DNA of 60,635 nucleotides from Acholeplasmataceae bacterium (GTDB taxonomy: Bacteria > Bacillota_I > Bacilli_A > ML615J-28 > CAG-313). Below the pieces are notes generated by a model. The model made no database searches. It had not been told where the DNA came from and saw nothing but the letters and a program-made list of their open reading frames with translations. A program made the position numbers and the translations under genes. Position 1 is the first letter of the stretch. Each line of letters starts with the position of its first letter. Below, in pieces: positions 11,386 to 59,913 of this stretch. The stretch covers positions 1-60,635 of the forward strand of contig DUPC01000035.1 in the NCBI GenBank assembly GCA_012838545.1, written 5' to 3'.

Positions 11386-11472
11386 TAAATTAACATTTTA
11401 TAGTAGTTTAAAATAAACAACAATTATTAGAGAAAGTATCAAAAAGAACTTTTAAATTTGGGAGGTAAAAAA

Positions 11473-28856: not shown

Positions 28857-28866
28857 GAGGTAACGA

Positions 28867-30255: not shown

Positions 30256-30271
30256 ACAAGAGTATGCGACG

Positions 30272-30303
30272 ATTTAGGTGACCAATTGGTCACCTAAATT
30301 TTT
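30272..30303 (+). terminator. Intercistronic hairpin between malE and malF
   Basis: ATTTAGGTGACC (30272-30283) and its exact complement GGTCACCTAAAT (30288-30299) flank AATT, followed by five T (30299-30303). As there is no promoter before malF, this is probably a partial terminator or mRNA-stabilising element that raises malE over malFG. Confidence 0.8.
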
Positions 30304-30317
30304 AAGGAGGAAATTAG

Positions 30318-32966: not shown

Positions 32967-32969
32967 ACG

Positions 32970-34319
32970 ATGTGGTTTATTATCTCTATCGTTGTCATCG
33001 GTGTAGTTGTTGTTCCGGGCTTGACGCTAGCGAAAAGAATCTATGACCGGAAAAAACACAAACACGCAAGTCCTTTGCCAACCGTAACCGAGATAAGGAT
33101 ATTTGAAGACGATACCGTAAGGGATCGAAGATATTATCTGAATATTTGGATTAAGGTTGCAGTTATTGGGATAATTGCTCTTTTGGCCTTATATGTGGTT
33201 TTCGTCCATAAGTGGATTTTTGGCACTAGACCGCCAAAAATTCTTGTTTGGTTAAGTTGGTTCTATTTGATTGTAACCTATTTTGTCCAAGATGCGTTAG
33301 CCGCGGATTTTGCGGAAAAGAAAGGTTATGGCAAAACAAACGGCGCTTTTTGGGGATTAATCCCGATTTACGGTTTGCTCCGTTATGCCAAAAAACCTAA
33401 ACGCAAAAATGTTCAATCTACGACCATTAAGAAAATTTACGGTTCTAAGTCACTCTTTGTCAAATATTTGCTTTTTTCGGAACTTGTGGGCTTAGGCATC
33501 GTGGTATTGTTACCGATTATTTATATCGTCGGTTCCTCTTTTGCCAAACAGAGCGGACTTCCGACGACCTTCTGGCCAAGGAATTTGACCTTGGATAATT
33601 ATCGCGTCCTTTTCGACGAAAGCGAAACGATGTTTGTCCATTGGTACAAGAATACCTTCTACCTTGCCCTCTTAAACATGGTCTTCGGCGTGCTCTTTAT
33701 AACTGGCGCAGCTTACATTTTTGCCCGCTTTAAGTTCAAAGGCAAAAAGGTAGGGCTTATTTCCATCTTGGTATTGCAAGTCTTCCCATCTTTCATGGGA
33801 ATGGTTGCGCTCTTCACGCTTTATCAAACCTTTAACCTCGTGGGTAGACCCCTTGCTTTAACCTTCATTTATGTGGGCGGAAGCGTTCCGTTCAATTTGT
33901 GGCTAATCAAAGGGTACCTTCAACAAATACCGCGCGACCTCGATGAGTCAGCTATGCTCGATGGGGCCAACAAAGCGCAGATTTTCTTTAAGATAATTTT
34001 GCCATTATCAGTGCCGATTTTGAGTTTTGTTGCGGTATCGCAATTTATGGCGCCATGGATGGATTACATCTTGCCAAGCTTCCTATTGAATATCGTTCCG
34101 CGCAACGCCAATATTCCGGCGGGCATGAATCTTGCGGAATACACGAAGATGCAATGGACGCTTGCGGTGGGCTTGTTTGAATTCATCAGCGGCACCAACA
34201 GCGAGTATACGACTTTTGCGGCGGGTGCCATTATCGTAGCCTTGCCGATTACAGTCGTATACATGCTCTTCCAACGGTTCCTCATTCAGGGAATTACCGC
34301 TGGCGCAACCAAAGGTTAA
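32970..34319 (+). CDS. malG: Maltodextrin ABC permease MalG with N-terminal membrane extension
   Basis: This 449-residue permease is longer than the usual 280 or so. The first 150 residues form an extra region with about three hydrophobic segments and a basic linker (RYAKKPKRK). The MetI-like permease core starts at about residue 160. The EAA loop reads DESAMLDGANKAQIFFKIILP, and the C-terminus is QGITAGATKG as in CUT1 MalG proteins. It pairs with MalF to form the channel. No ATP-binding subunit is encoded in this window, so a shared MsmX/MalK-type ATPase elsewhere is expected. Confidence 0.9.
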   Translation: MWFIISIVVIGVVVVPGLTLAKRIYDRKKHKHASPLPTVTEIRIFEDDTVRDRRYYLNIWIKVAVIGIIALLALYVVFVHKWIFGTRPPKILVWLSWFYLIVTYFVQDALAADFAEKKGYGKTNGAFWGLIPIYGLLRYAKKPKRKNVQSTTIKKIYGSKSLFVKYLLFSELVGLGIVVLLPIIYIVGSSFAKQSGLPTTFWPRNLTLDNYRVLFDESETMFVHWYKNTFYLALLNMVFGVLFITGAAYIFARFKFKGKKVGLISILVLQVFPSFMGMVALFTLYQTFNLVGRPLALTFIYVGGSVPFNLWLIKGYLQQIPRDLDESAMLDGANKAQIFFKIILPLSVPILSFVAVSQFMAPWMDYILPSFLLNIVPRNANIPAGMNLAEYTKMQWTLAVGLFEFISGTNSEYTTFAAGAIIVALPITVVYMLFQRFLIQGITAGATKG

Positions 34320-34332
34320 TAGAAAAGCAATG

Positions 34333-34356
34333 GATATGGCAAATATTTGCCATATC
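34333..34356 (+). repeat. Perfect palindrome between malG and the glucosidase gene
   Basis: GATATGGCAAAT is followed directly by its exact complement ATTTGCCATATC, giving a 24-base palindrome without a strong T run. It may protect or process the polycistronic mRNA, or it may be an operator. Confidence 0.7.
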
Positions 34357-34377
34357 TATTTTCAAGAGGATGGTACA

Positions 34378-36087
34378 ATGAACAACAATAAGTGGTGGAA
34401 AGAAGCCTTTGGCTATCAGATTTACATTCGCAGTTTCTATGATGCCAATAATGACGGAATCGGGGATTTGCAAGGGATTACCGAGAAACTTCCTTATCTA
34501 TCCTATTTGGGGGTTAACCTAATCTGGATTTGTCCGTTTTACAAATCTCCCATGGACGACAACGGTTATGATGTGATGGATTTTTATGCGGTGGATAAGA
34601 CTTACGGAACCCTTGAGGACTTTAAAGTGCTTGTGGAAGAAGCACATAAACGGGGGATTAGGGTTATCATAGACCTAATCCTAAACCATACATCCGATGA
34701 ACATTCGTGGTTTATCGAAAGCCGGAAAAGCAAGGATAATCCCTACCGGGATTATTACATTTGGCGTCCTCCCCGTTATGATGAACTGGGAAACCGTAAA
34801 GAACCGACTAACTGGGCTTCCTTTTTTGGGGGCGGTTGTTGGGAATACGATGAACAAACCGATGAATATTACATGAAAATCTTTTCAAAAAAAATGCCCG
34901 ATTTAAATTGGGAAAACCATCAAGTACAAGAGGAAATGGTTAAGGTGGCCAAATACTGGTTGGACCTTGGCGTGGACGGTTTTCGGGTGGATGCGGTGGC
35001 GCATTTGGCGAAAGCTCCGTTTGTGGATTCCGACATGCCCACCAATTATCGATATACCCCGGATTGGGGCAGATTTTCCAATCTTCCCAAACTTCATGAG
35101 TATCTGAAAATGATGCGAAAGAAAGCTTTTTCGGGTTATGACTTGATGGTTGTGGGGGAAGTTGGCGGAGGAGCCTTGGTAGAAGATGCCTTAAAGTATT
35201 CCGCTCCCGAAGAAGAGGAATTAGACATGGTTTTCAATTTTGACCACAATTGGTGCAATAACTCCTGGAGCGCCAAAGATCGCACGGAGTTAAAAATCAA
35301 TGTTCCTCATTTAAAAGAAATGTTCGATAAATGGCAAACAGGTCTTTTCGGTAAAGCTTGGAATGCTATTTACTGGTTGAATCACGATCAACCTCGCGTG
35401 GTTACCCATTACGGCGACGATGAAGGGCCTTTACACGACCGAAGTGCCAAAGCTTTGGCAGTCGCCCTCTATTTTATGTGGGGTACGCCTTTTATCTATA
35501 ATGGTGAAGAAATCGGGATGACCAATCCTCATTTTAAATCAATTGCCGATTTCCAAGATGTTTCTTTTATCACCCAATATTATCTTAATATCCAAAATGG
35601 AACTGATCCTGAGGCTTACATTGCTCATGCGTCGCTATCCACCAGAGATAATGCCAGGACGCTGATGCAATGGAATGATGGTTTGCATGGCGGATTTACG
35701 AAAGGGACCCCCTGGAATTTAATCAATGAAAACTACCGAACCATCAATGTGGAAAGCCAAATAAAAGATCCTAATTCAATCCTTAATTTTTACCGAAAAA
35801 TTATTGAAATTCGGACAAAATCGCCATTTCGTAATATAATTATCTATGGTAGTTATGAACTTATCGAAAAAGAACATAACCAAATTTATGCCTATCTTAG
35901 ACGCTTTGAGGGTCGTAATTTGCTTGTCTTATGCAATCTCACAAAAGAAGCAGCAACAGTGGACAAGCTCCCTTACACTTTGGAAGAGCGCGTCTTGGGA
36001 ACCATGGATAAACAAATCAATATCAATAAAAAAATGGTTTTGGAACCTTACGAAGCTTATGTCTTGGAAATTAAGGAGGAAATATAA
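34378..36087 (+). CDS. malL: Oligo-1,6-glucosidase/alpha-glucosidase (GH13_31-like)
   Basis: This 569-residue cytoplasmic GH13 enzyme begins KWWKEAFGYQIYIRSF, typical of oligo-1,6-glucosidases. I start it at 34378, behind AAGAGG, rather than at an in-frame ATG at 34330 whose extra codons read through a palindrome. Catalytic residues are Asp205 (GFRVDAVAH), Glu261 (VGEVGG) and Asp337 (NHDQPR). The calcium-loop-like DANNDGIGDLQG is present. It would hydrolyse imported isomalto- and maltooligosaccharides from the non-reducing end. Its stop codon is immediately followed by the malQ start. The exact linkage preference is not certain. Confidence 0.88.
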   Translation: MNNNKWWKEAFGYQIYIRSFYDANNDGIGDLQGITEKLPYLSYLGVNLIWICPFYKSPMDDNGYDVMDFYAVDKTYGTLEDFKVLVEEAHKRGIRVIIDLILNHTSDEHSWFIESRKSKDNPYRDYYIWRPPRYDELGNRKEPTNWASFFGGGCWEYDEQTDEYYMKIFSKKMPDLNWENHQVQEEMVKVAKYWLDLGVDGFRVDAVAHLAKAPFVDSDMPTNYRYTPDWGRFSNLPKLHEYLKMMRKKAFSGYDLMVVGEVGGGALVEDALKYSAPEEEELDMVFNFDHNWCNNSWSAKDRTELKINVPHLKEMFDKWQTGLFGKAWNAIYWLNHDQPRVVTHYGDDEGPLHDRSAKALAVALYFMWGTPFIYNGEEIGMTNPHFKSIADFQDVSFITQYYLNIQNGTDPEAYIAHASLSTRDNARTLMQWNDGLHGGFTKGTPWNLINENYRTINVESQIKDPNSILNFYRKIIEIRTKSPFRNIIIYGSYELIEKEHNQIYAYLRRFEGRNLLVLCNLTKEAATVDKLPYTLEERVLGTMDKQININKKMVLEPYEAYVLEIKEEI

Positions 36088-37566
36088 ATGAGAGCAAGCG
36101 GAATCCTTTTACCGATTAGCAGTTTGCCGAGTCCTTATGGAATCGGTACTTTGGGCAAAGAAGCTTTTGAATTTGTTGATTTTTTGAAAAAAGCCGGCCA
36201 ATCTTATTGGCAAGTCTTGCCGCTCGGTCCGACGTCTTACGGTGATTCGCCTTACCAAACATTTTCGGCCTTCGCAGGAAATCCATATTTCATCGATTTG
36301 GACCTATTGGCGAAAGAAGGGCTTTTAAAACAAAACGAATATCGTCATTTGGAAACACCTAATCCCGAACTCGTGGATTATGAGTACCAGTATTTTAACC
36401 GTTTCAAAGTTTTGCGTCTTGCCTATTCGCGTTTTAACCCCCCAAAAGAGTCGGACTTTGAAAAGTTTATAGAAGATAATAAAAAGTGGTTGGACGATTA
36501 TGCACTCTTTATGAGTATCAAAGGCCTTCACAACGACCAAAGTTGGTGGCTTTGGGAGGAAAAGTATAAAAAACGCAATCGCGAAGCTTTGGAGGAGTTT
36601 ATCGAGACACATCAATCGGACATCGGTTTTTGGAAGTTTGTTCAATATTATTTCTTTAAGCAATGGTTAGCCTTAAAAAATTATGCTAATCAAAAGGGCA
36701 TTGAAATCATCGGGGATATTCCGATTTATGTAGCTCAGGACAGTAGCGACGTTTGGTCAAATCCTCTCGACTGGCAATTGGACGAAAACTTGGATCCGAT
36801 TGACGTAGCGGGTTGTCCGCCCGATGCTTTTGCCATCACCGGCCAGCTTTGGGGAAACCCAATCTATAATTATGAGAAAATGGAAAAAGAGGGTTTTGGT
36901 TGGTGGATTGAACGCATCAAGGAATCGTTTAAACTCTATGACGTCGTGCGGATTGACCATTTCCGGGGGTTTGAAGCTTATTACGCTATTCCTTACGGAC
37001 ATCCAACCGCCGAATTCGGCAGATGGGTAAAAGGCCCCGGCATGAAGTTATTCCAAAGAGTAAAAGATGTTTTGGGGGATGTAAGGATTATTGCGGAGGA
37101 CTTAGGGTTCTTGACCCCGGAAGTATACCAGTTGCTTGCGGATACGGGGTATCCGGGCATGAAAATCCTGCAATTTGGTTTTGATCCTTACAATGACAGC
37201 GAATATTTGCCTCATAACTATAAACGAAACAGTTTCGTTTATACTGGTACCCATGACAATATGACGGTGCGTTCTTGGTTTAAAATCTTAAACGAAGCGG
37301 AAAAAGCTTTTGTTAAAGCTTATTTGGACTTTGAGGATGACGAAAAAGTCGCAGAAAAAATGATTAAAGTATGTCTAGCCTCGGTGTGCAAAGTGGCGGT
37401 TATTCCGCTTCAAGACTACCTGGAACAAGGCGATGAAGGACGCATCAATGTTCCTTCCACCCTGGGCGGAAACTGGGTTTGGCGAATTAAGAGCGATGTC
37501 CTTACCGAAGAACTTCACCAAAAAATCTATTCTTGGTGCAAGACTTATCGCCGGGCAAGATACTAA
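36088..37566 (+). CDS. malQ: 4-alpha-glucanotransferase (amylomaltase, GH77)
   Basis: This 492-residue GH77 enzyme disproportionates maltodextrins by transferring glucan segments between chains. The start (RASGILLPISSLPSPYGIG) is characteristic. Active-site residues are Asp290 (VRIDHFRGFEAYYA), Glu337 (IIAEDLGFLTPEV) and Asp390 (YTGTHDNMT). Length is standard. It abuts the glucosidase stop codon directly, with AAGGAGG upstream, so the two are translationally coupled. It is cytoplasmic. Confidence 0.96.
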   Translation: MRASGILLPISSLPSPYGIGTLGKEAFEFVDFLKKAGQSYWQVLPLGPTSYGDSPYQTFSAFAGNPYFIDLDLLAKEGLLKQNEYRHLETPNPELVDYEYQYFNRFKVLRLAYSRFNPPKESDFEKFIEDNKKWLDDYALFMSIKGLHNDQSWWLWEEKYKKRNREALEEFIETHQSDIGFWKFVQYYFFKQWLALKNYANQKGIEIIGDIPIYVAQDSSDVWSNPLDWQLDENLDPIDVAGCPPDAFAITGQLWGNPIYNYEKMEKEGFGWWIERIKESFKLYDVVRIDHFRGFEAYYAIPYGHPTAEFGRWVKGPGMKLFQRVKDVLGDVRIIAEDLGFLTPEVYQLLADTGYPGMKILQFGFDPYNDSEYLPHNYKRNSFVYTGTHDNMTVRSWFKILNEAEKAFVKAYLDFEDDEKVAEKMIKVCLASVCKVAVIPLQDYLEQGDEGRINVPSTLGGNWVWRIKSDVLTEELHQKIYSWCKTYRRARY

Positions 37567-37577
37567 AAGGAGAGGTA

Positions 37578-39056
37578 ATGAAAAAAAGCTTAATTCTTTG
37601 TTTATTGTTCGTTAGTTTGTTTTTAAGTTCCTGTGTAAACAACAATCCTCAAATTGTTGACGATCCCACAGATGAAATCATCGAAACCAATTATTCTTTG
37701 GAAGATTTTTTTAGTTTGGAAAAACCATTGACTATTGATATCATCATCTCCGACGATGAGTTGGAAAAAATCAACCAGGATTATTACGATTTTTCCGCTT
37801 TCGGTTCCAAATCGCCGATTTATCGGATGTGCGATTTAGTGATTACTTATGGCGAAGAAACGGTTACCATCAAAGAAGTGGGAATCCGCATGAAAGGAAA
37901 TACCTCCAGGAGGGATTTCTTCAGTAAAAAAGAAGGAATATATAATTTGATTCATTTCAAATTATCTTTCCAGGAAACCTTTGATGATGAAGACGAATAC
38001 GACCAACCAAAAATTTGGACTGATTCTTCCCAAAGAGAACAACGGAAAAAACGCACCTTTTTGGGCATGAAAGCTTTTGACCTAAAGTGGAACAAGAACT
38101 ATGACGCAACCCATGTCAGACAAATCTATGCTTTTGACAAATTTCGCGAGAATGGCTTGCTTGCTCCTCATGTTACGCTTGCCACGGTTAAAGTAAAGGG
38201 TTCAAGTCTCGGTTTGTATGAAGTATTGGAACCGATTGATAAAGAATTTATTGAACGTTACTTACCGGAAAAAGATTGGGGCGGCGATCTATATAAAGTT
38301 GGATGGAACAACTATAAAGGCGGGGATTTTACCCCTCTTCAAAACCCTAATGAAGTTGGCGTCGAAGATGAAATGATTGCTTATTTTCCTAACTACGACT
38401 TAAAGACCAACAAAAAGAAAAGCAATCATCAGGATATGTTGAATCTCTTGGACCGTTTAAACAATACGTCTGTTAAAGACTTGGATGTGGTTGTTGGGGA
38501 TATTTTGGATATGAATTACTGGACCATGTTTGAAGCAGTTAATTATTTGGTCGGCAATCCTGATGACATTCGCAATCATTACAACAATTATTATCTGTAT
38601 TTTATGGGTTCAACCCATAAAGCGATAATCATCCCTTATGATTACGATCGGATTTTGGGAATTACCAAAGATTGGAACCCAAATGGTGACGCCATGACAA
38701 AAATGGAACCAAATTCGCTTGCCAATACGATGCAAAACGGCACTCAGCAGATAAATCCGCTTTATAAACAGGTTTTGTTGAATCCAAATTCGGTTTGGAA
38801 TAGAGGGTATCTCAACCGATTAATAGAAATCGTTCAAACCGCTCAATTTACGCTGGCAGACTTTTTACCGTATTATGAGAAAGCCAAAGCGCTTTATCAA
38901 AATAAGGTTGTTCCCGATATCAAAAAGGTGAAATCGTCCTATATCGCTTTCTCTTTGACGGAAAGCAACCAAATAAACCGTACGGATGTCAATTTAAGCA
39001 TTGAACTTTATTTTTCCTTAAAGCGCGAAACAATAGAACAAAACATTAATAAATAG
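37578..39056 (+). CDS. CotH-like protein kinase lipoprotein
   Basis: This 492-residue lipoprotein (lipobox LSSC, Cys19) starts at the ATG at 37578 behind AGGAGAGG. The remainder matches the CotH family, secreted atypical kinases known from spore coats and from fungal invasins. Visible features are GIRMKGNTSRR near residue 110, KLSF, RQIYAFDKFRENG, the strand LGLYEVLEPIDKEFI, DMNYWTMFEAVNYLVGNPD (helix with metal/nucleotide residues) and IIPYDYDRILG. Located inside the maltodextrin operon, between malQ and another GH13 gene, it presumably modifies or binds cell-surface proteins of this system. The substrate is unknown, and spores are not implied. Confidence 0.85.
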   Translation: MKKSLILCLLFVSLFLSSCVNNNPQIVDDPTDEIIETNYSLEDFFSLEKPLTIDIIISDDELEKINQDYYDFSAFGSKSPIYRMCDLVITYGEETVTIKEVGIRMKGNTSRRDFFSKKEGIYNLIHFKLSFQETFDDEDEYDQPKIWTDSSQREQRKKRTFLGMKAFDLKWNKNYDATHVRQIYAFDKFRENGLLAPHVTLATVKVKGSSLGLYEVLEPIDKEFIERYLPEKDWGGDLYKVGWNNYKGGDFTPLQNPNEVGVEDEMIAYFPNYDLKTNKKKSNHQDMLNLLDRLNNTSVKDLDVVVGDILDMNYWTMFEAVNYLVGNPDDIRNHYNNYYLYFMGSTHKAIIIPYDYDRILGITKDWNPNGDAMTKMEPNSLANTMQNGTQQINPLYKQVLLNPNSVWNRGYLNRLIEIVQTAQFTLADFLPYYEKAKALYQNKVVPDIKKVKSSYIAFSLTESNQINRTDVNLSIELYFSLKRETIEQNINK

Positions 39057-39066
39057 AGGTGTAAAA

Positions 39067-40353
39067 ATGGCAAAAGAAACTCCTGTAAATTTACGGAACT
39101 GGCAATTTTACCAAATCTTTATTCGTCAGTTTTCTTCGCCCCATGATTTTAAAGGTGCGATTCCCAAATTACCATATGTAAAATCCCTGGGAACCGATTG
39201 TATTCAATTAGTTCCGTTTCACCCTATTGGAGTGTTTCGGCGTAAGGGTACTGTCGGAAGCCCTTATTCAATAAAAGATTATTATAGCGTCGATTCTCTA
39301 AATGGCAACCTAGAAGATTTTAAAACTTTTTTAGAAGAAGCCCATCGCTTAGGAATGAAAGTACTCATGGATATTGTCTTTAACCATACTTCGCACGATG
39401 CGAATTACACTAAAACGCATCCGGATTGGTATTATCAGGATGATTTAGGTAATTTCCAAAACCGTGTAGGCGATTGGTGGGATATCGCCGATTTGAAGAT
39501 TGAGGGTAATCAAGAACTTCAAGACGAACTGCTCAATGTTTTAACCTATTGGGTAAAACAAGGTATTGATGGGTTTAGATGCGATGTCGCGCCTTTGATT
39601 CCGCTGGAATTTTGGGCAAGAGCCCGAAAAGAATTATCAATCCTTAACCCTAATTTGCTTTGGGTAGCCGAAAGCGTGCATCGCAGTTTTATTAAATATC
39701 TTCGTGATTTAGGCTATGAAGCATCAAGCGACGGAGAAATCTATCAAGTTTTCGATATTTGTTATGATTACGATATTTTTGACCATTTTGAAAATTATTT
39801 GTTGGGAAAAGAGCCATTGCAAACTTGGGTTGATAATCTTCTTGACCAAGAGATGATTTATCCGAAAAATTATGTTAAATACCGTTACTTGGAAAATCAC
39901 GATTTTAAACGGATTGCTTCCTATGCGACAACAAATACCCAATTAAGAAACTTTAATGCCATGCTTTTTTTGCTTCGGGGAAGTGTTTTCCTTTTCAACG
40001 GTCAAGAATTAGGCATTGCCCATCATCCAAATCTATTTGAAATTGATGAAGTTGATTGGAATACCAATGATGAAGCAAACCTAACGAGTTTAATCAAAAC
40101 TTTATCCAAATTCAAAAAAGCAACCGGTTATATCAATGATCCGATGAATATTGAAGTTCTAGGCAATGATGTCATAAAAATCGAATACAAACAGCTTGGT
40201 GGCAAACGCACCGTTACTGGTATTTTTAACTTAGGCAAAACCCCGCAAGCGGTTGAAACCCAAGTGAAAGGCAAAAATGTTTTAACCGGTCAAGAAATTG
40301 ACGAGACTGAAATAACCGTTGACGAACCGCTAATTCTTATTAGAAGCGAATAG
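39067..40353 (+). CDS. Cytoplasmic GH13 alpha-amylase-family enzyme
   Basis: This 428-residue GH13 protein has no signal peptide and is shorter than its neighbours. The barrel regions are present: MDIVFNHTSHD (region I), GFRCDVAPLIP with nucleophile Asp173, WVAESVH with Glu202, and LENHDFKRI with Asp279. Region II lacks the usual histidine after the nucleophile, reading CDVAPL. A short C-terminal beta-domain follows. It likely acts on imported maltodextrins or malto-oligosaccharides; hydrolase versus transferase activity cannot be decided from sequence. It is the last gene of the mal operon, followed by a terminator. Confidence 0.85.
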   Translation: MAKETPVNLRNWQFYQIFIRQFSSPHDFKGAIPKLPYVKSLGTDCIQLVPFHPIGVFRRKGTVGSPYSIKDYYSVDSLNGNLEDFKTFLEEAHRLGMKVLMDIVFNHTSHDANYTKTHPDWYYQDDLGNFQNRVGDWWDIADLKIEGNQELQDELLNVLTYWVKQGIDGFRCDVAPLIPLEFWARARKELSILNPNLLWVAESVHRSFIKYLRDLGYEASSDGEIYQVFDICYDYDIFDHFENYLLGKEPLQTWVDNLLDQEMIYPKNYVKYRYLENHDFKRIASYATTNTQLRNFNAMLFLLRGSVFLFNGQELGIAHHPNLFEIDEVDWNTNDEANLTSLIKTLSKFKKATGYINDPMNIEVLGNDVIKIEYKQLGGKRTVTGIFNLGKTPQAVETQVKGKNVLTGQEIDETEITVDEPLILIRSE

Positions 40354-47866: not shown

Positions 47867-48686
47867 CTTTATTGCTTTTTTACCCAAATAGTTTACCCCA
47901 TTTTTTATCAGTTACTATAGTTTTTTTGTAGTTTTTGGGAAAAAAATTCCTAGAAGATTCTAATCCTAAGAATTAATAAAATTTGTTTTAGAAGTAAAAA
48001 AGTTTTGGATGGTTCAGGATTTAAGTGGATAGTAAAATGTTTTTTTAAAAAAAGATAGGATAGTCTTTTTTTTTATTTTGGTAAAGCCCAAAGTAATAGA
48101 ATTACCTTTATTTATAAATAAACTTTCCAATAAGCAACTTAACAAGGCGATGCGATACACCTTGTCCCACTCTCGTATAAGCAAATAATTAATGGGTTGA
48201 TACTAACAGATTTCGTAGGTTTTAGACAATCCATTTTTTCCTAGAGTTAGTAAAAAAAATCCTATAAATTTCCTTGCTTGACGTATTTTTTATGGTATAA
48301 TCTAGTTGAAGCAAAAATAGAATACTGCAAGATGTTTATGACCCAAATTGATTTAAATGAGGGTTTTTTTCCTTTTTTAGGAATAGGGTTTAAATGCTTT
48401 TTTTGGAAAAAGGGGGGGATTATTTTTAGAAAAACAAAATTAAGCAAATGGTAAAAGTCTTTGTTTTAGTTTATTTGCCCATGTTTAGCAGAAGCAGTAT
48501 CTTGCTTTTTTAAAAAATCAGTTGTTAATAACAGACATTTTTAAGTAACTGAATTCATTTTTTGATAAATGGCTTTTCTAAAACAAAAATTGTTTTTTAG
48601 CTTTATTCAAAAATTACCATAGGGGGAATGTGAAAAAAGAAAAAAGCTGCTTTTTTTGTTTTTTTTAAAAATGAAGGGAGGAAATT
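47867..48686. other. Long AT-rich intergenic region with orphan promoter
   Basis: About 820 bases without a supported gene. It contains an inverted repeat ACAAGG (48142-48147) with CCTTGT (48160-48165). An orphan promoter (TTGCTT 48274-48279, 16 bases, TATAAT 48296-48301) is followed by a weak hairpin AAGCA (48492-48496) with TGCTT (48503-48507) and T run. A transcript of about 200 bases with no convincing reading frame could be made. GGGAGG lies before the next gene. Confidence 0.4.
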
Positions 48687-51600
48687 ATGATAAGAAAAAT
48701 ATTTCTGTTTTTTGCAATATGCTTGTGTTTATTCGGATTAACGTCATGTAAAAAAAGCGTGGAAATTATTTTTGATTCCCAAGGGGGTTCGTTCGTTGCT
48801 TCGATAAACGATAAAGATGATTTTGACGTAAACAATCTTCCGGTACCGACCAAAGAGGGTCACACTTTTTTAGGTTGGTTCTTAGATCTAAATTATGAAA
48901 CAAATATCGTCGGCAATGTTCCGGATAAACTCAAATTTACCCTTTATGCCAAATGGGAAGTAAATTCTTATACGATTTACTTTAATACCAATGGCGGAAC
49001 CGCAATCTCGGAACAAACACATGTTTATGGCTCGACTATTTCAGCCCCGATTCCGCCGACCAAAGAAGGAAATGATTTCTTCGGTTGGTATCTTGATGAG
49101 GAATTGAGCCAAGCTTTTGAATTTACCACCATGCCGGCGGGAGATTTAAATCTTTATGCCAAATGGGAGGTTCAATCCTTTACTATCACTTTTGACAGTA
49201 AAGGTGGAAGTGTGGTTAATCCTATTACCGCCGCATACGGTTCGCCGATTACCGAACCTAATCAACCGGAAAAAGTTGGATATAACTTCCTCGGGTGGTT
49301 CCTGGATGAAGAATACACAACCTTGTTTGAATTTACCACCATGCCTTTGAATGGGGCGAAAGTTTATGCCAAATGGGAAAAACTTTCCTATAAACTTATT
49401 TTCCACTCGAATGGCGGAACGGATATTCCGGAATCGATCCATCTTTTTGGCGATGCAATCACTGAACCTAATGCACCGGTAAAAGAAGGGTTTGATTTTG
49501 ACGGTTGGTATACCGATGCCAATTTAACAAACAAGTTTACTTTCAGTACCATGCCAGCACAGGATATCCATTTATATGCGAAATGGACTCCGATAACTTA
49601 CACCATTACGTTTGATAGTCAAGGGGGAAGTTTAGTAGAACCAATCAGCACCGGATACGGTATGAGCATTCAACTTCCAACACCGGAAAAAGAAGGTTTT
49701 GTATTTGTCGGTTGGTTCTTGGATGAGGGCTTTACCCAAAGCTTTACTTCTGCCACCATGCCTTTAGGCGGAGCGCATCTATATGCCAAATGGGCTTTGG
49801 AACCAAATACGATTACATTCGTAACTGGTTTTGAAGATTTGGCTGTAGATCCAATAACCGCCTATCCAGGGGAAGAAATCAATCTTCCGGCACCACAATA
49901 TGTAGGGTATGATTTTGCCGGATGGTTCTTGGATGAAAACCATGCAACCAAGTTTGAAGATGCTCTAATGCCTGAAGAAAGCATTACCCTTTATGCCAAA
50001 TGGGAGCCCAAATGGGTAGCGTATACTGTGTTGCATTATGCGGAACATCCGGAAATCGAAGGTTTGTTTGAAGTAGTTAGATCTGATAATAAATATGATT
50101 ATACCGGAACTGTTGTTGAAGCAAGCCTTTTGCCGAATACTTATGCGGAAATAACCGACCATCCCAATCGGGTATTTAGCGGAACCGTCAAAGGTGACGG
50201 CAGTTTGGTTCTAAGCGTCTATTATCTCAGAAACACTTACACCTTAACCGTTTACGGCGATGGCGGTGTTGACGAAGCCGGCAATGATGTCGTAACCCTC
50301 ACCGCAAAATTTGGGGCTACTATTATTCCGCCAAGTTTCACCAAGAAAGGTTATCGCTTTACCGGTTGGAGTTCCTTATTCCCAGAAACGATGCCGGGGT
50401 ACAATCAATCGATTGAAGCACAATGGGAAGCCGTGTATGTCAATTACAAAGTCGAGCATTATCACGAAAATGCGCTTGACGATGACTATTCTTTAATTAC
50501 CACCGAAAGTTTTAGCGAACTAATTGACCATGAAGTAGAAGCGGTAATGAAGACTTATTTAGGCTTTAGCGTCAATAGCGAACATCCGGATAGCAAGCAT
50601 TCCGGTATTACCTTAGAAAATGATGCATTGGTCTTAAAAGTCTATTACAAACGCAATGTTTACCAAATCACTTTCAAGGATACCGACGGTACACCGCTTG
50701 ACATCCCAGCCATTAGTGCTAAATTCGATGCACCGATTAATGCACCGACGGAACCGACAAAAGAAGGCTATGTTTTCCTTGGCTGGTTTGTTTCTTTAGA
50801 AGCTACCGAAGCGTTCGAATTTACCGCCATGCCGCTGGGGGGCGCAACGCTTTATGCCAAATATCAGGTTAGACTTTATAAGATTACCTTTGTGAGTTAT
50901 GCAGAAATCGGGGTTACGGAAATAACCGCCGAATACGGCACGCCGATTAACCCTCCGACCGATCCAATCCGTCAAGGTTATACCTTTAAGGGTTGGTATC
51001 TCGATGAAGAAACAACCATTCCATATGAATTTACCGTCATGCCGGCGGAAGACATTACCCTATATGCCAAATGGGAACCAAATGTCGTAACGGTTACTTT
51101 CGTTTACCTGGACGGTTCGGATAATACCGTGATTACCGGTAATGTCGGAGATACTTTAACCGAAATAACGCCAACCAAAGACGGTTATACTTTCGACGGT
51201 TGGTATACTGATATTTATTTTGACAATAAATTCACGGAATTTATTTTTCCTGTATCAAACATCACTCTATACGCTTTGTGGATACCGATTGATTATACTA
51301 TCGAATTTGTTACCGGTTTTGAAGACGTTACTCTCGAACCGTTAATCGCCCCGTTTGAATCATGGCTTGATTTGCCGATTCCGGTCAAGGAGGGCTATCG
51401 ATTTGACGGTTGGTACGAGGATGAAGCAAGAACGCTCGAGTTTACCAGCAATTTGATGCCTTTAGGCGGAATCACTTTGTATGCCAAATGGGTGGAGAGT
51501 GCGGAAGAATCGACAATTGCCTATGCCTTGGAACAAGGTCAAGGAGCTAATGTTTCCATCAAAGGCATTGTTTATGCAAAAGTCGTAAACCCATATGTGG

Positions 51601-54600
51601 GATTCTATATCAAGGATGCGAAAAACCAAATTTTCTGTTTAGCGGATCAAGAAACGGTGAATATCGGCGATGAAGTCATGGTTACCGGTTATTTCGAACG
51701 GTGGAACGAAGCGCCGATGCTTGTGGGTATTTCTAATGTGGAAGTTCTATCCAGCGATGCCCCGGTTACCGAGCCAGTCGAATTAACCTTTGCTGATTTA
51801 GAGACTCTTTATCCGTTGGACGAGAACTTCGGCAAACATGTCGTCTTAACCGGAGTCTTGACCAATGTCGAAGGTCAGCTTTACTTGGTAAATCCAAATA
51901 ACTTTAAACAAGTGCCGATTTTCCATCCAAGCTATGATCGTTTTGCTATTATGTTTGAAGTAAACAACTTGCACAAAGGGGAATTCGTTTTAAGCCAATA
52001 TGATGATTCCCTTGGGTGGACATTAGCGCTTGATGACGGCGATTTGGAACTAATTCCTTTAACCGACGAAGAAAAAGCTGCCTACATCAAAACTTATCTG
52101 GAAAACTTAGGAATCGAACCTCATTATCCGCTGGAAAGTTTTGATCTTCCGACTGCCGATTTATTTGGTTGGAGCGAAATCCAAGCTACTTTACAACCGG
52201 AAAGCGAATTATTCTATGATGAAGAAACCGGCGTGTTCGCGGATACAGAAGAAGCTTATGATGTTTTGTTTGACATTGTATTGACGGTTGGTGAATATAC
52301 GGATAGTTTCACTTTAACTGTTTCGGTTAATCCTTATCCGATAATTTCGTTCTATGATTTCTATCAAATTGCCGAATTAGGGGTTTATTTCTTTAAGGCA
52401 ACTGTTATTTATAATCTTGATTATATGACCATATTAGAAGACGAAACCGGAACCCTAGTGTTATGGGATGAAGGTGAAGGGTTGGAAATCGGTTGGGAAG
52501 TAATTATAAAATTTGATTTTTGGGACTATGGTTATTATTCCTTTGAATTGATTCGTTTGCTTTCTAGCGAAAAACAACCGCCAGCTGCTGTTAAAGTAAC
52601 GGAAACGGAGCTGCTCGAACGCGAAGAAGATGATAATTATTTATATCAAGGACAATATGTCGAGTTAAGAGGTATTTTCTCGTACGAGTATGACGATTAT
52701 TATGGGGAATTGAACGCATCCCTTAAGGTAGGCAATACAAGAGTATTTATATTGGATGAATTTGGAATGATTGATAAAACCTTCCCATTCAATAATATGG
52801 AAGTCATAATTAGGGGTTATCTCTATTACGATTATGACTGCTGGGTTTTGACTTTCGTCGTTAATCGCGGTGACTTCCAAATCCCAGATTATACGGATAT
52901 TGAACTTGTGACCGCTTTGCAACAAGAAATCATTGCCCGTTACCAAGAACATACTTTCCATTCCTTTACGAGTATGGACCTTCCAAAATCGCATCCGATT
53001 TTAGGCGGAAGAATCACTTGGAAGATGGCTAGCGGTTATGAAGATAAATACGACCTGGAGAAAAATTGTTTTGTTGAAGTTTTACAACCGACGCCGATTG
53101 TCATCGACATCAGCATCAGTTACAATGAAGTCAATATCAACTTCACCATCAATACAGTTCTTTATCCAGAAGAAGTCTTCTCAATCGAAGAACTTCCAGA
53201 ACTTAATGACGGCCAACTCGTAACTGTTAAAGGCCTGGTTGTATATAAGTGGTTTAACTGGCTTTACCTCAGGGATGAAACCGGTATAATCAGGGTAACA
53301 TGGTATGAAAATACGGTTCAGAGGGGCGATTATATTCGTTTGACTGCCCAAAAAGACACCAGAGACTATATGGCTGCCCTTTACTTTGAGGAAGATGAAC
53401 ACAGTTTCGAAATAATCTCCACGGATAATCCGGTTGATATTCCGCTTTCTCCGCTGACCTTGTTAGATCTTTTGCAAACCGAAGCATATGACATAAATTT
53501 AATTTCCTATTATGTGGAAGTAACCGGAGAATTAAAAATGGATAGCGGAGACCGCTTATACTTCGGTGAAGAATTTATTTATGTCAGTACACCGGATTCA
53601 TACACTTGGACAGAACTAAAAGAATATGACGGAAAAATAGTAACAATTAAAGGTTACCTTGACGATTTCTATTATTGGGATGACACTTGGTATGTGATGT
53701 TCACCGGTATGCCGGGGGATATTTTCGAATCAACCCTTTCGGCTGATGACAAGATTGCTTATGTCAAAGCTTTATTGGAAGATAGGTTTGAGCCTTGGTC
53801 AGCAAGCGATTCATATTTCACCCTCTTAACATCCTACCCTCAATTCGACATTACGATTTCCTACGAAATCCTTAAGGATGAGTTTAACTGTTACAATATC
53901 GAAACCGGTTATCTCAGTCCAATTGAGGAAGATTCACTAATTGAATTCGAAGCAACAATTACTTTGGGCGAAATCCAAGAAGAAGTCCAGTTAACCTTAA
54001 AAGTCGATAGTTACGGCTCAACCACTGATACTCCAACGGTTACAATTTCCGAGTTTAAGAATTCCCATGGCGAAACCTTAAAGGTTGTCGGAAAAGTAAT
54101 GGAAATTTATTCCAATTATGTTTTAATAGAAGACGAGACCGGAATGCTCTTTGTCCGGACTACTTCTTTCCTTTACAACTACAATTACTTTATCAATCGC
54201 AAATTAGTCTTTACGGGACAGTTAAACAATCATCGTGGACGTTTGGAAATGCTCTATAACCGTTATGAAAGTTTTGAGGCAGCGACTGCCCCTGAGGTAA
54301 TCTTTGAACCGAGGACTTTAGCGGAAATTGTTTCCCTGGATCCGTATGACGATGCCGTTTATGGTTTACCGGTTGAAATTACCGGCTTGCTTTACAGCGA
54401 AACGGACGAAACTTCCTATAATACGGAATACTATATCACCGATGGATTTGATAGGATTCGTTTGAAAAATTTCGAATACATACCTAATACGGAAATCGCA
54501 AATTATGTCGGTATGGAAATCACCGTTAAGGGAAGAATCTTTGGTCTTGACCCATATTATTATGGTAATGATGTGTGGACGATTCAAATTTCTCGCCTTC

Positions 54601-56393
54601 CCCTTGTTACCCAAGAATATGACGAAGAAGCAATTGTAGCTAAGATAAAAGGCATGTTAATCCAAAACTACGATCAAGCGACTTATCAATACATTGATTA
54701 TCTTTATTTCGATTACAACCAATATGCCTACTCGATGGCGGATGTTTATTTTGATATCATCAGTGGGTCTGAAGCGATTGATTTCTATAGCTATAGCAAT
54801 TCCGGTAATTTCTATTGGGTCGAAGAAGATGTAGAAATCGTCTTTAAGGTAACGATTAATTGTGGCGAGGCGCATGATGAGTTCAATTTAACCATTATTC
54901 TAAAAGCTATGGAATTGAATACTTATGAAGATATCTTTGACGAAACAGGCGGCTTTAAGCTCTTATTCTTAAAGGGAGTGTTGTTTCATAGAGCTCCTGA
55001 CGGTCTTTACTTCTTAATTGACGATAAAGTTTATTTCCTTGCCAATGTTCCTTATGCTTATGACTATTATGAAGAAATTGAGTACTTGTTCACCGGTTAC
55101 CGAGCTACGGTTGACGGCAAGACGAACATTTGGACAAATGCCAGCGTCTACCAAGAACTAGGCTATTTCTACGAGGATTATCCAGAACCACAACCAATCA
55201 CCATTCAGGAAATTTATGCTAGAGATTTTTCGGAAATATTGACCAAAATTCATTCAATTAGCGGTACCTTGGGTCATGATGCCGATTCAGGACTTTATTA
55301 TCTGGAAAACTTGGGCGAACGGGTTTACTTAAGATTCTTATTTCCTGAGGCTAGACGCTCAAGCGAAATGGGGATTCGCAACGGTTATCTTCCATCCTAC
55401 CTCATCGGTAAAGAAGTCATGGTTCGGAGTTTGTTCCCGGGTAAAACGATTAAAGGCAAATATCTCTTTGATGTTTACGGCGACCCATATCAAGCAATCG
55501 AAGAACCAGAATATACGCCAAGCGAAAGAGTGGCAGCGGTAGTGGATTATTTGAACCTTGAATACCATAATGTGACCTTCTATTCGTTTGAAAGTCCATG
55601 GTTGCCAGAATATGTCGATATTTGCTCCTTGATATGGGAATATCTTAACCCTGAAGATGAACAATACTTCTACTATGATAATTACGGTTATTACATTAAG
55701 TGGTTAACCGAACCGGTTACCGTATCCTATAATGTCACCATTACTTACGAAGATTACGAAATGGATCCTATCACCACAAGTATTAGGGTTGATATAATCC
55801 TTAAACCGAGGGAAATAATCACAATCGAAGATTTGCATCGTGCCAAACAGAATGAATACTACACCGTAAAAGGTATTGTTCAAGAAGTTCAACAAGATAA
55901 TAGCGGTTGGATTATCATTAAAGACGAAACCGGTATGTTTAAGATTGATACTTCCGGAACTTACTACGACAATCTGCCATTTGAAGTTGGCGACGAAGTA
56001 GTTGCTTATGGCTCTTACGTATATCGTTCCTTTCAAGCAAATCCGTACTTCGAATATACAAGCGAAATTGTCATTCTTTCCCGGGATAATCCGGTTACCA
56101 TTCCACCTGCAACCACATACACCATTGAGGAAATCTTTGCGTTAGACTATTTCGATTTATCCCTGGTAGGAACATACATCACTACAACCGGAACCCTCAA
56201 GCGAGTTGGCAGCAACTACTACCTATACGTTGGTTCCCGAGAAATCGAACTTCTTTATGCCACCGACATTCTCTATCAATATGTCGACTCGGAAGTTCAA
56301 ATCAGCGGCTACTTGATGGGCTTGGTCAGTTCGCAAACTTCCATTCCAAGATGGTACTTGACGGTAAGGGATCAAATAACGGAACTAAATTAA
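48687..56393 (+). CDS. Giant lipoprotein: InlB-type repeats followed by OB-fold-like pairs
   Basis: This 2568-residue lipoprotein has the lipobox GLTSC (Cys21). Residues 22-935 hold about eleven InlB/Listeria-Bacteroides repeats, each with a core like GxxFxGWYxD and an ending LYAKWE. Two MucBP-like modules (VAYTVLHYAEHPEIEG and VNYKVEHYHENAL) are interspersed. From about 938 to the end come six units of about 265 residues. Each unit has two OB-fold-like domains (V-x-G-x-V … IxDETGxxxV … GDxVxVxG), and the units are separated by five helix-plus-beta domains of about 95 residues (KIxxVKxLL… then an Ig-like strand set ending LTLxV). No catalytic residues are visible. Surface adhesion or scaffolding is likely; ligand unknown. 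Confidence 0.85.
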   Translation: MIRKIFLFFAICLCLFGLTSCKKSVEIIFDSQGGSFVASINDKDDFDVNNLPVPTKEGHTFLGWFLDLNYETNIVGNVPDKLKFTLYAKWEVNSYTIYFNTNGGTAISEQTHVYGSTISAPIPPTKEGNDFFGWYLDEELSQAFEFTTMPAGDLNLYAKWEVQSFTITFDSKGGSVVNPITAAYGSPITEPNQPEKVGYNFLGWFLDEEYTTLFEFTTMPLNGAKVYAKWEKLSYKLIFHSNGGTDIPESIHLFGDAITEPNAPVKEGFDFDGWYTDANLTNKFTFSTMPAQDIHLYAKWTPITYTITFDSQGGSLVEPISTGYGMSIQLPTPEKEGFVFVGWFLDEGFTQSFTSATMPLGGAHLYAKWALEPNTITFVTGFEDLAVDPITAYPGEEINLPAPQYVGYDFAGWFLDENHATKFEDALMPEESITLYAKWEPKWVAYTVLHYAEHPEIEGLFEVVRSDNKYDYTGTVVEASLLPNTYAEITDHPNRVFSGTVKGDGSLVLSVYYLRNTYTLTVYGDGGVDEAGNDVVTLTAKFGATIIPPSFTKKGYRFTGWSSLFPETMPGYNQSIEAQWEAVYVNYKVEHYHENALDDDYSLITTESFSELIDHEVEAVMKTYLGFSVNSEHPDSKHSGITLENDALVLKVYYKRNVYQITFKDTDGTPLDIPAISAKFDAPINAPTEPTKEGYVFLGWFVSLEATEAFEFTAMPLGGATLYAKYQVRLYKITFVSYAEIGVTEITAEYGTPINPPTDPIRQGYTFKGWYLDEETTIPYEFTVMPAEDITLYAKWEPNVVTVTFVYLDGSDNTVITGNVGDTLTEITPTKDGYTFDGWYTDIYFDNKFTEFIFPVSNITLYALWIPIDYTIEFVTGFEDVTLEPLIAPFESWLDLPIPVKEGYRFDGWYEDEARTLEFTSNLMPLGGITLYAKWVESAEESTIAYALEQGQGANVSIKGIVYAKVVNPYVGFYIKDAKNQIFCLADQETVNIGDEVMVTGYFERWNEAPMLVGISNVEVLSSDAPVTEPVELTFADLETLYPLDENFGKHVVLTGVLTNVEGQLYLVNPNNFKQVPIFHPSYDRFAIMFEVNNLHKGEFVLSQYDDSLGWTLALDDGDLELIPLTDEEKAAYIKTYLENLGIEPHYPLESFDLPTADLFGWSEIQATLQPESELFYDEETGVFADTEEAYDVLFDIVLTVGEYTDSFTLTVSVNPYPIISFYDFYQIAELGVYFFKATVIYNLDYMTILEDETGTLVLWDEGEGLEIGWEVIIKFDFWDYGYYSFELIRLLSSEKQPPAAVKVTETELLEREEDDNYLYQGQYVELRGIFSYEYDDYYGELNASLKVGNTRVFILDEFGMIDKTFPFNNMEVIIRGYLYYDYDCWVLTFVVNRGDFQIPDYTDIELVTALQQEIIARYQEHTFHSFTSMDLPKSHPILGGRITWKMASGYEDKYDLEKNCFVEVLQPTPIVIDISISYNEVNINFTINTVLYPEEVFSIEELPELNDGQLVTVKGLVVYKWFNWLYLRDETGIIRVTWYENTVQRGDYIRLTAQKDTRDYMAALYFEEDEHSFEIISTDNPVDIPLSPLTLLDLLQTEAYDINLISYYVEVTGELKMDSGDRLYFGEEFIYVSTPDSYTWTELKEYDGKIVTIKGYLDDFYYWDDTWYVMFTGMPGDIFESTLSADDKIAYVKALLEDRFEPWSASDSYFTLLTSYPQFDITISYEILKDEFNCYNIETGYLSPIEEDSLIEFEATITLGEIQEEVQLTLKVDSYGSTTDTPTVTISEFKNSHGETLKVVGKVMEIYSNYVLIEDETGMLFVRTTSFLYNYNYFINRKLVFTGQLNNHRGRLEMLYNRYESFEAATAPEVIFEPRTLAEIVSLDPYDDAVYGLPVEITGLLYSETDETSYNTEYYITDGFDRIRLKNFEYIPNTEIANYVGMEITVKGRIFGLDPYYYGNDVWTIQISRLPLVTQEYDEEAIVAKIKGMLIQNYDQATYQYIDYLYFDYNQYAYSMADVYFDIISGSEAIDFYSYSNSGNFYWVEEDVEIVFKVTINCGEAHDEFNLTIILKAMELNTYEDIFDETGGFKLLFLKGVLFHRAPDGLYFLIDDKVYFLANVPYAYDYYEEIEYLFTGYRATVDGKTNIWTNASVYQELGYFYEDYPEPQPITIQEIYARDFSEILTKIHSISGTLGHDADSGLYYLENLGERVYLRFLFPEARRSSEMGIRNGYLPSYLIGKEVMVRSLFPGKTIKGKYLFDVYGDPYQAIEEPEYTPSERVAAVVDYLNLEYHNVTFYSFESPWLPEYVDICSLIWEYLNPEDEQYFYYDNYGYYIKWLTEPVTVSYNVTITYEDYEMDPITTSIRVDIILKPREIITIEDLHRAKQNEYYTVKGIVQEVQQDNSGWIIIKDETGMFKIDTSGTYYDNLPFEVGDEVVAYGSYVYRSFQANPYFEYTSEIVILSRDNPVTIPPATTYTIEEIFALDYFDLSLVGTYITTTGTLKRVGSNYYLYVGSREIELLYATDILYQYVDSEVQISGYLMGLVSSQTSIPRWYLTVRDQITELN

Positions 56394-57645: not shown

Positions 57646-57687
57646 AAGTAATAAGAAAATAAAGAAACTAGAAAAGGAATGATTACG

Positions 57688-59037
57688 ATGAAAAAAGAAG
57701 ACAACAAAACTTTATTCGAAAAATATAATTCGCCTAGTGAAGTGGTTCGTTGTCCCTTACGATATTTGAAATGGCGAAAAAAGCTTAACACCTACGCGAT
57801 TGCGGCGGTGAATTTATACGGTCTTATTAGTTTGTTTGATTTTACCATCATTTTCAACAAATTCTTCAGGGTGGAATTAACCACTGAAGTGGTTAAAAAA
57901 ATCCTTTTGCCTTTTGTTTTTAAGCATCGGCGCTTTGGTTTTTATGAAGACTATTTGGTGCATTATGTGATACTGGATGATTTTGAATGGGTTGATTATT
58001 TAATCGAAGAACAAGGAATGAAACCGCGCTATGTTCCTGAAAGAGCCACCTTTGCCAATTATACGAACGAGGTATATGAAGAAGCGGATAACTGGGAAAC
58101 TGTTTTCCAATTTATGATTGGAAAATTCGGTGACACCAAAGAAACCTTCACTGCTTTCTTTGATATCCGCAATTACGTGCTAGGCAGTTTCGACTTATTT
58201 GAGTTAAAAGAAACGATTGAAAAAAGCGGAATCAAGTTTGATGACGAAAAAGAGTTGGTTGAGTTTTTTGACATGTTGGTGAAAGCCAAGAACAACAGTA
58301 GAATGTGGGAACACAAAGGTTATACTTCGCTTGAATTGATGGAAATCTTAAAAAACGGCGAACCGGTTATTTCGGATTTGTTTGCAACAGTTGAGTATGA
58401 TCCCGAAACAGAATGCCACTGTGGCAGTGGCATCAAATACCAAAGATGTTGCATGTTGGTAGAACTTAGCGAGGATAACCATTTAACCAAAGAAGAAAGT
58501 GATTTTTTCTATAATCTTTGGTTACAACTGCTTGACTTTGTCAATCGAAGACTAAAGGTAACCGATTCAGTAATCAATGTAACCAATCCTACCGACAATG
58601 ATCCCAAGGTATTAATGAAGGTAAGAGATAAGCTTTGGGAAGATACTGACATTATCAGAGAATTTATCCATAACACACCGTCCTTATCTTTTGAAGAAAG
58701 AAAGCACCTGCATGGTTGGGAATTTAATTCGATAAAAGGTACTTTTGTCCTTTACCAACAAACAGAAGAGATTGCGTTAATGGTAAAAATGTTTCAATTT
58801 GATGATGGTTACTATGGCGTTAAGGGTCTATCCACGGCAATTTCCACAACCCTTAATGAAAGTATGCCGGTAATGGTTGATACCGTATTGTTGCCATTTG
58901 GCAATAGAATCATTTATGATGGATTTCTATTCAAATTTCCCTTCAACTTTAAAGCAAAATCACAAAAAAGGTTAAAACGACCATTTAAAAAAGCAATAAA
59001 AAGGGAAGGTATCATTACAGATTTAACTGAATATTAA
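57688..59037 (+). CDS. SEC-C zinc-motif protein of unknown function
   Basis: This 449-residue soluble protein starts at 57688, ten bases after AAAGGA; an ATG at 57679 is too close to that site. The N-terminal 230 residues are mostly helical and unrecognised (KYNSPSEVVRCPLRYLKW, then HYVILDDFEWVDYLIEE). A SEC-C zinc motif sits near residue 245 (CHCGSGIKYQRCCM), as in SecA C-termini and many proteins of mixed function. About 190 residues follow it, again mostly helical with some strands. The N-terminal half has a decayed copy immediately downstream. The function is unknown. Confidence 0.75.
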   Translation: MKKEDNKTLFEKYNSPSEVVRCPLRYLKWRKKLNTYAIAAVNLYGLISLFDFTIIFNKFFRVELTTEVVKKILLPFVFKHRRFGFYEDYLVHYVILDDFEWVDYLIEEQGMKPRYVPERATFANYTNEVYEEADNWETVFQFMIGKFGDTKETFTAFFDIRNYVLGSFDLFELKETIEKSGIKFDDEKELVEFFDMLVKAKNNSRMWEHKGYTSLELMEILKNGEPVISDLFATVEYDPETECHCGSGIKYQRCCMLVELSEDNHLTKEESDFFYNLWLQLLDFVNRRLKVTDSVINVTNPTDNDPKVLMKVRDKLWEDTDIIREFIHNTPSLSFEERKHLHGWEFNSIKGTFVLYQQTEEIALMVKMFQFDDGYYGVKGLSTAISTTLNESMPVMVDTVLLPFGNRIIYDGFLFKFPFNFKAKSQKRLKRPFKKAIKREGIITDLTEY

Positions 59038-59046
59038 ACCCAAACC

Positions 59047-59078
59047 AAAGCCAGACCGAACCGTCTGGCTTTTGCTTT
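59047..59078 (+). terminator. Rho-independent terminator after the SEC-C gene
   Basis: AAAGCCAGAC (59047-59056) pairs with GTCTGGCTTT (59063-59072), followed by TGCTTT. It is GC-rich with a six-base loop. Confidence 0.85.
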
Positions 59079-59126
59079 AGGCATTAGGCAAACAATTCTT
59101 CAAAATTGAATAAAAAGGGAAGGTTT

Positions 59127-59913
59127 ATGGCGATGGCCCAAATGACCAATCAAGAAATATTTTAAAAAAAATACAATTCCGTTAAGGATGTTGCAAGATG
59201 CCCCAACGGTTATGCCGAATGGTGGGAAACCTTGGATACTTTTGCCAGTGCGTCAGTTAATCTATATAAGGTTATTAAGTTATCTGAGTTTGTGAAAATA
59301 TTAAATAATTATTTTGAGGAATCCTTTCCTGCGGAACTGGTAAAGAGCTTGCTTTTACCAAAAATATTAAAGGTAAGCCTTTATGCTTTCTCCAAAGATT
59401 ATTTAATACATATAATGATTTATGATGACCTAAGCGAATTAAAAACGATTATCGCCAAACAAGAAGGTAAACCAAGATATTTACCCGACAAGGAAGAGTT
59501 TGCCAAATCTGAGGACGAATGGTATGACGATCATGATTGTTGGGATAAAGCATTCGATTACTTGTTAAAAACATTTGGTCCAAAACCAGAAGTATTTATT
59601 GTCCTAATTGTGATAAAAGTTTACTTAACCAGAGGCAATGATCCAACCCAAATTGGGGAAATCTTGGAAAACCATGATCTTTATTTTGATAATTCGGATC
59701 GGTTTGAAGAATTTTATAAAATGAGCCTTGAAGCATATAATCATTTCCGGATTTGGGAAAACAATGGGCATACCCCTAAGGAATTGTATAAAAGGGGAAA
59801 AGTAGAGTCAGAAAAGAATACCTTCCCAAAATAAATATACCAATTAAAAAAGCAAAAGAATTGGTCCAAATGACCCCTGTCCATGGGGAAGCGGTTTAAA
59901 GTGTAAGAGTTGA
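59127..59913 (+). pseudogene. Decayed paralogue of the SEC-C protein
   Basis: From ATG 59127 (GGGAAGG upstream) the frame reads MAMAQMTNQEIF, stops at TAA 59163-59165, and continues KKYNSVKDVARCPNGYAEWW and on for about 220 codons. Much of this parallels the upstream gene (KYNSPSEVVRCP, ASVNLYKVIKLSEF, SKDYLIHIMIYDDL, GKPRYLPDKEEF). It stops at 59834. A shifted frame then encodes a degenerate SEC-C motif, NDPCPWGSGLKCKS, ending at 59913; one zinc cysteine is now Trp. A tandem duplication followed by decay explains this. A TTG restart at 59232 could still express about 200 residues. Confidence 0.75.

Follow-up and report, generated by a model that had tools for sequence, protein, structure and literature searches.

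A lipid-anchored giant protein from an Acholeplasmataceae bacterium predicted to carry six tandem OB-fold pairs on an InlB-repeat stalk

The window, meaning the whole 60,635-nt stretch of DNA that was analysed, contains a complete ORF on the + strand that encodes a lipoprotein of 2568 amino acids. A lipobox (LTSC, residues 18-21) near the N-terminus predicts lipidation, and the orthologues described below also have a lipobox-like sequence. Residues ~25-937 consist of InlB B-repeats (PF09479; 458 bits, E=1e-140, Pfam), and residues 941-2568 comprise six tandem pairs of OB domains (OBa followed by OBb), with five small Ig-like (aBig-like) domains between them. The features are as follows.

48674..48681, +, Shine-Dalgarno-like AAGGGAGG, 5 nt ahead of the ATG at 48687
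48687..56393, +, complete ORF, 2568-aa lipoprotein
48687..48749, +, signal peptide and lipobox (LTSC, Cys21), from sequence
48759..51497, +, InlB B-repeat (Flg_new) stalk, 11 stretches (Pfam); their number differs among orthologues
51507..51776, +, OB1a (residues 941-1030), AlphaFold2 and profile HMM
51777..52061, +, OB1b (1031-1125), AlphaFold2 and profile HMM
52062..52325, +, Ig1, aBig-like with an N-terminal helix (1126-1213), hhalign, AlphaFold2 and profile HMM
52326..52592, +, OB2a (1214-1302), AlphaFold2 and profile HMM
52593..52892, +, OB2b (1303-1402), AlphaFold2 and profile HMM; with Ig2, the most conserved among orthologues
52893..53144, +, Ig2 (1403-1486), AlphaFold2, profile HMM and orthologue conservation
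53145..53426, +, OB3a (1487-1580), AlphaFold2 and profile HMM; weak Pfam tRNA_anti-codon and NCBIfam stress_OB_fold matches
53427..53744, +, OB3b (1581-1686), AlphaFold2 and profile HMM
53745..54014, +, Ig3 (1687-1776), AlphaFold2 and profile HMM
54015..54311, +, OB4a (1777-1875), AlphaFold2 and profile HMM
54312..54620, +, OB4b (1876-1978), AlphaFold2 and profile HMM
54621..54887, +, Ig4 (1979-2067), AlphaFold2 and profile HMM
54888..55193, +, OB5a (2068-2169), AlphaFold2 and weak HMM match; unlike the other pairs, kept among orthologues
55194..55532, +, OB5b (2170-2282), model and alignment; unlike the other pairs, kept among orthologues
55533..55799, +, Ig5 (2283-2371), AlphaFold2 and profile HMM
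55800..56090, +, OB6a (2372-2468), AlphaFold2 and profile HMM
56091..56390, +, OB6b (2469-2568), AlphaFold2 and profile HMM

The stalk repeats resemble those of InlB B-repeat surface proteins (E 1e-140), but the giant lipoprotein has no LRR domain by Pfam or NCBIfam, and its distal part is wholly different. Homology to internalins was rejected, as the class 1 internalin model of NCBIfam scores 243 against a cut-off of 1600 bits and matches the B-repeats only. No catalytic domain, nuclease included, is detected by Pfam or NCBIfam. The window also encodes two further giant surface proteins, a BspA-type LRR_5 protein of 3159 aa (1834-11313) and one of 878 aa that combines InlB repeats with LRR_5 (11458-14094). 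Elsewhere in the window's genome (G000), contig C10 encodes a 2629-aa lipoprotein with InlB-like motifs beside aBig_2 proteins (L094:2183-10072).

An earlier note on this DNA had described the C-terminal part of the protein as a repeat of about 265 residues, an Ig-like domain followed by two OB-like domains. The domain order agrees with the profile HMMs and the periodicity is real, but the length was underestimated: units start at residues 1126, 1403, 1688, 1979 and 2283, giving periods of 277, 285, 291 and 304, with a last unit of 286. Self-BLASTP of the OB/Ig region finds no repeats because they are too divergent, and profile-profile comparison is required. Unit-versus-unit hhalign E values are mostly 1e-18 to 1e-5, with some pairs weaker (5e-4 to 1e-3). 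Scores of real unit pairs lie at 31-128, against no more than 22 in 60 column-shuffled control comparisons, except for u0-u4, whose non-significant score of 12.5 falls inside the control range. Pair 5 is the most divergent of the six by profile HMM, and OB5b has no HMM match within the window's protein. OBa and OBb are distinct yet related (hhalign 94%, E 9e-8), and the recurring IxDETGxxxV motif pointed out in the same note corresponds, in the prediction, to the hairpin between beta2 and beta3 of OBa in every pair.

The fold of these domains was assessed by structure prediction, structural search and profile search. AlphaFold2 models residues 941-1402 with a pLDDT of 88.5 and a pTM of 0.78 (32-sequence alignment), and residues 1403-2568 with a pLDDT of 78.5 and a pTM of 0.53 (nine sequences), the latter value making the relative placement of domains uncertain; confidence is lowest around pair 5. 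The five-strand order of the OB topology is predicted at all 12 positions, with a helix joining strand 3 to strand 4 in the OBb domains of residues 941-1402, the better model. Against the PDB, the OBa profile matches YgiW (4e-5), RPA32 (2e-4), archaeal RPA (2e-3) and RPA14 (5e-3), its hits being mainly OB proteins; OBb reaches the fold only through OBa. Foldseek matches include YgiW (TM 0.69, rmsd 2.5), RPA14/32, STN1, RADX, viral LEF-3 and the OB domains of tRNA synthetases. Among matches about one pair long, the tandem OBs of HIN-200 proteins come first (p204-dsDNA at 5e-6, p202, AIM2/IFI16; probability 1.00), with a loose superposition of the pair (TM ~0.45 of the target, rmsd 7-8 A). Many long cadherin and nuclear-pore matches, with rmsd values of tens of Angstrom, were discounted as not meaningful.

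Single-sequence evidence is less direct, and could be taken to mean that the OB resemblance is superficial and that the domains are small beta barrels of a different type. Within residues 941-2568 all Pfam and NCBIfam models stay below their cut-offs; PF01336 (tRNA_anti-codon) scores 18.1 bits against a gathering threshold of 27, and Pfam gives no OB match for OBb itself. A shorter relative in G004, described below, does reach PF01336, at 108 bits. Given the confident models with their strand order and intervening helix, the close YgiW superposition, the predominance of OB proteins among the profile hits and the kinship of OBa with OBb, an unrelated barrel is highly improbable. The earlier suggestion of OB barrels is therefore upheld by structure prediction, Foldseek (which returned HIN-200, RPA, STN1 and YgiW) and the OBa profile search alike, and the distal part of the protein is strongly predicted to be a chain of exactly 12 OB folds. 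The five spacers match PF20578 aBig_2, the atrophied bacterial Ig domain, by hhalign (63%, E 7e-5); they differ from that family in missing the Pfam cut-off, which short relatives exceed, and in bearing an N-terminal helix.

The arrangement is shared by other genomes. A search of 395 genomes of the host's class yields complete co-linear orthologues in G082 (Haloplasma), G149, G137, G307, G194 and G176; G005 and G343 contain fragments. At least five families, that of Haloplasma among them, are represented by co-linear orthologues, each with exactly six pairs. The more divergent relatives in G153 and G164 likewise have six pairs and five Ig-like domains; a relative in G329, whose gene is cut by the contig at its 5' end, has four pairs and then continues into sequence of another kind. 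A stretch of G188 (C1:1683270-1683875) that matches the giant family at E=8e-35 contains two in-frame TGA codons and is probably a gene remnant (family f15). Plasmid sequences searched with tblastn contain no match.

A maximum-likelihood tree of 49 units requires 7 changes of position label, against 30.5 expected when labels are shuffled (0 of 200 shuffles as low). Units of the eight closest proteins cluster by position, apart from the long-branched u3 of G176, and those of G153 and G164 form position pairs of their own. This clustering implies that the array predates the split of the families and has not been homogenised; it is ancient and fixed, and does not recombine. Across seven complete sequences OB2b-Ig2 is the most conserved segment (34-35% mean identity), followed by pair 5 (29-30%), which is thus both well conserved among orthologues and least like the other pairs. 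Such conservation suggests specialised sites.

These observations bear on an alternative in which the ligands of the array are proteins or other cells, or in which it bears load as a scaffold or spacer, with the OB pairs acting as assembly platforms, for example for other surface lipoproteins. Cadherin and S-layer rods are among the Foldseek matches of the whole chain, and the YgiW/BOF family, to which OBa is related, is not defined by the binding of nucleic acids. A spacer, however, should vary in copy number and lose per-position conservation, and here it is the stalk that varies, with 5 to 11 InlB-like motifs among relatives, while the OB array stays constant at six pairs. The acidic surface of the region (see below) is ill suited to polyanions, whereas a fusion of OBa to a nuclease in relatives points to nucleic acids. 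On balance we regard a role of this kind as rather unlikely.

The OB barrel is most familiar from proteins that bind DNA or RNA, and OB folds bind sugars, peptides and proteins as well. The composition of the array does not resemble that of a conventional nucleic-acid-binding surface: the OB/Ig region has a net charge of -174 over 1631 residues (pI 4.1), all 12 OBs are net negative, and the corresponding regions of the orthologues range from -163 to -200. Residues conserved in at least six of the seven orthologues are Gly, Tyr and Asp, with Lys depleted (0.3x). Strong acidity weakens the case for nucleic-acid binding. However, this genome encodes other acidic extracellular proteins, at -5 to -10 per 100 residues (nucleases -5 to -8), and acidity by itself does not exclude it, although the OB/Ig region lies at the acidic extreme. 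Together with the conservation of Gly, Tyr and Asp, the charge suggests that any binding of nucleic acids would proceed through stacking or divalent cations rather than through backbone charge, the mode of HIN domains.

The gene itself is solitary, with a Dps/ferritin-like gene upstream and an ADP-ribosylglycohydrolase gene downstream, and its flanking genes differ in each orthologue family. Further downstream lie a SEC-C motif protein (452 aa) and a 200-aa frame like its N-terminal part, possibly a truncated tandem duplicate (57679-59834). No nuclease genes were noticed in the flanks of the window's copy or of its six complete orthologues, so that the giant gene lies outside any co-located nuclease and importer of the kind that defines a DNA-degradation locus. 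Its shorter relatives do occupy such loci. Across the class, shorter lipoproteins with OBa/OBb and aBig domains recur beside an SNase and an ABC importer, often with a DHH (NrnA-like) gene. The neighbouring SNase is verified by Pfam in nine genomes (G004, G014, G016, G070, G082, G091, G099, G107 and G331) and assigned by resemblance in three (G005, G030 and G248). In two of the nine, G091 and the orthologue-bearing Haloplasma genome G082, OBa is fused to SNase in one protein. The C-terminal half of an SNase lipoprotein of G091 (L127:3607-4884) matches DUF5689 (PF18942, E 8e-6, just below the cut-off) as well as the OBa profile, which by sequence may link DUF5689 to this OB type. In G013, G026 and contig C11 of G000 (L027, L032 and L096), another recurrent locus has OB/aBig lipoproteins of 901-1261 aa next to an aspartoacylase/M14-like lipoprotein and other conserved lipoproteins, without SNase.

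In the window's genome the same importer and an SNase lipoprotein are encoded in an operon that the end of contig C3 truncates in its next gene, and four EndA genes lie on contigs that also bear aBig_2 domains. EndA is present in all 12 genomes with long members, against 201 of 395 overall (hypergeometric 2.6e-4, with kinship ignored), a co-occurrence that lends weak support. No fusion of an OB pair to EndA occurs in 17 loci with large EndA genes, except for split frames in G028 (L125:1040-5002, contig C36), where one in-frame TGA lies between an OB-pair/aBig frame and an aBig plus Endonuclease_1 frame that lacks its own signal peptide. The two may be neighbouring genes, a fusion that has been broken, or the product of misassembly.

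It is also conceivable that the ligands of the OB pairs are oligosaccharides or polymers, for instance exopolysaccharide or glycans of the host or sediment, which would make the protein a glycan adhesin or capture arm. OB is an oligosaccharide-binding fold as well, the conserved aromatic and acidic residues (Tyr, Trp, Asp) are typical of sugar sites, and the InlB stalk would be in keeping with this role. An alpha-glucan gene set also lies about 8 kb upstream of the giant gene. This run of large + strand genes (26892-40353) is likely an alpha-glucan utilisation cluster, with a pullulanase-associated-domain protein (26892-28856) and an alpha-amylase (34330-36087). Inspection of the regions flanking the orthologues, however, revealed no consistent glycan set and no recognisable glycan genes apart from uronate-type genes near the G082 copy; the nearest domain relatives sit in nuclease rather than sugar loci, and no carbohydrate-binding OB structure is among the top profile and fold matches listed. 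Glycan binding accordingly seems unlikely.

Comparison with described systems places the protein near several of them. Ca. Izemoplasmatales DNA-degradation loci, which include a large nucleic-acid-binding protein (PMC8289736), and the Hujiaoplasma nucleic-acid-degradation locus (PMC10470597) come from related wall-less bacteria and combine secreted nucleases, an ABC importer, NrnA-type DHH enzymes and large nucleic-acid-binding proteins. The short OB/aBig relatives sit in loci of matching make-up, whereas the giant protein is a solitary gene with 12 OBs and without a nuclease or lamin-tail domain. Extracellular nucleases of the ExeM/YhcR type (PMC6085458, PMC4118848) are likewise secreted or surface proteins with OB folds in tandem, and ExeM loses nearly all of its nuclease activity when a region containing two putative OB folds is deleted (PMC6085458); compared by description rather than sequence, the giant protein differs in having six pairs where they have one and in lacking a catalytic domain.

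HIN-200 proteins (p204, p202, AIM2, IFI16) provide the best tandem-OB fold match and share the paired arrangement, but they are eukaryotic cytosolic or nuclear sensors with basic DNA faces; the pairs described here are extracellular and acidic, lacking a basic dsDNA-binding surface as judged by composition, and sequence similarity (E 0.39) does not support homology. RPA32, STN1 and YgiW (BOF) resemble OBa in sequence profile and single-barrel structure, but are single or heterotrimeric intracellular or periplasmic proteins that form no arrays. OB pairs on extracellular proteins are thus already known from YhcR, ExeM and the OB proteins of DNA-degradation loci; what is new is the occurrence of co-linear six-pair orthologues in at least five families, in fixed order and on an InlB stalk of variable length. 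A licence-limited literature collection yielded no description of OB folds combined with InlB repeats in a lipoprotein, nor of a non-enzymatic lipid-anchored 12-OB array with a length-variable stalk. With no single-sequence PDB match for the OB/Ig region either, and no family model at cut-off, the earlier impression that OB-like repeats at this scale are unusual holds.

Wall-less bacteria of the host's branch include dedicated eaters of environmental DNA. Taking the SNase/ABC loci of the short relatives together with the OBa-SNase fusions and the EndA and SNase-ABC genes of the genome itself, nucleic-acid capture is the best guess, and of the two ligands suggested in the earlier note, extracellular DNA is made plausible by these relatives, while glycans gain no specific support. 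The protein would then be a stalked, lipid-anchored surface receptor whose OB pairs bind extracellular nucleic acids or oligonucleotides for salvage, a reading that we prefer tentatively, at close to an even chance. The InlB repeats would hold the chain of OB pairs and aBig-like spacers off the membrane, the pairs, perhaps several jointly, would capture the ligand, and the captured nucleic acids would be kept near surface nucleases and the ABC importer. The nature of the ligand is here suggested by the domain relatives, as is cooperation with the nuclease/importer locus; acidity, conservation of Gly, Tyr and Asp rather than Lys, and the position of the giant gene outside a nuclease locus count against it. 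A more elaborate form of nucleic-acid capture, in which the six pairs would be six separately specialised sites kept in order since before the family split, forming an extended nucleic-acid track or multi-site receptor and an acidic, cation- or stacking-dependent analogue of RPA and HIN proteins, is doubtful.

Per-position conservation indicates that the array is not a generic repeat adhesin, and the conserved 12-OB arm with its variable stalk is a concrete, testable candidate for polymer capture at the surface of these bacteria. If the ligand is not nucleic acid, the family would be a clear case of OB tandems reused outside the cell for another purpose.
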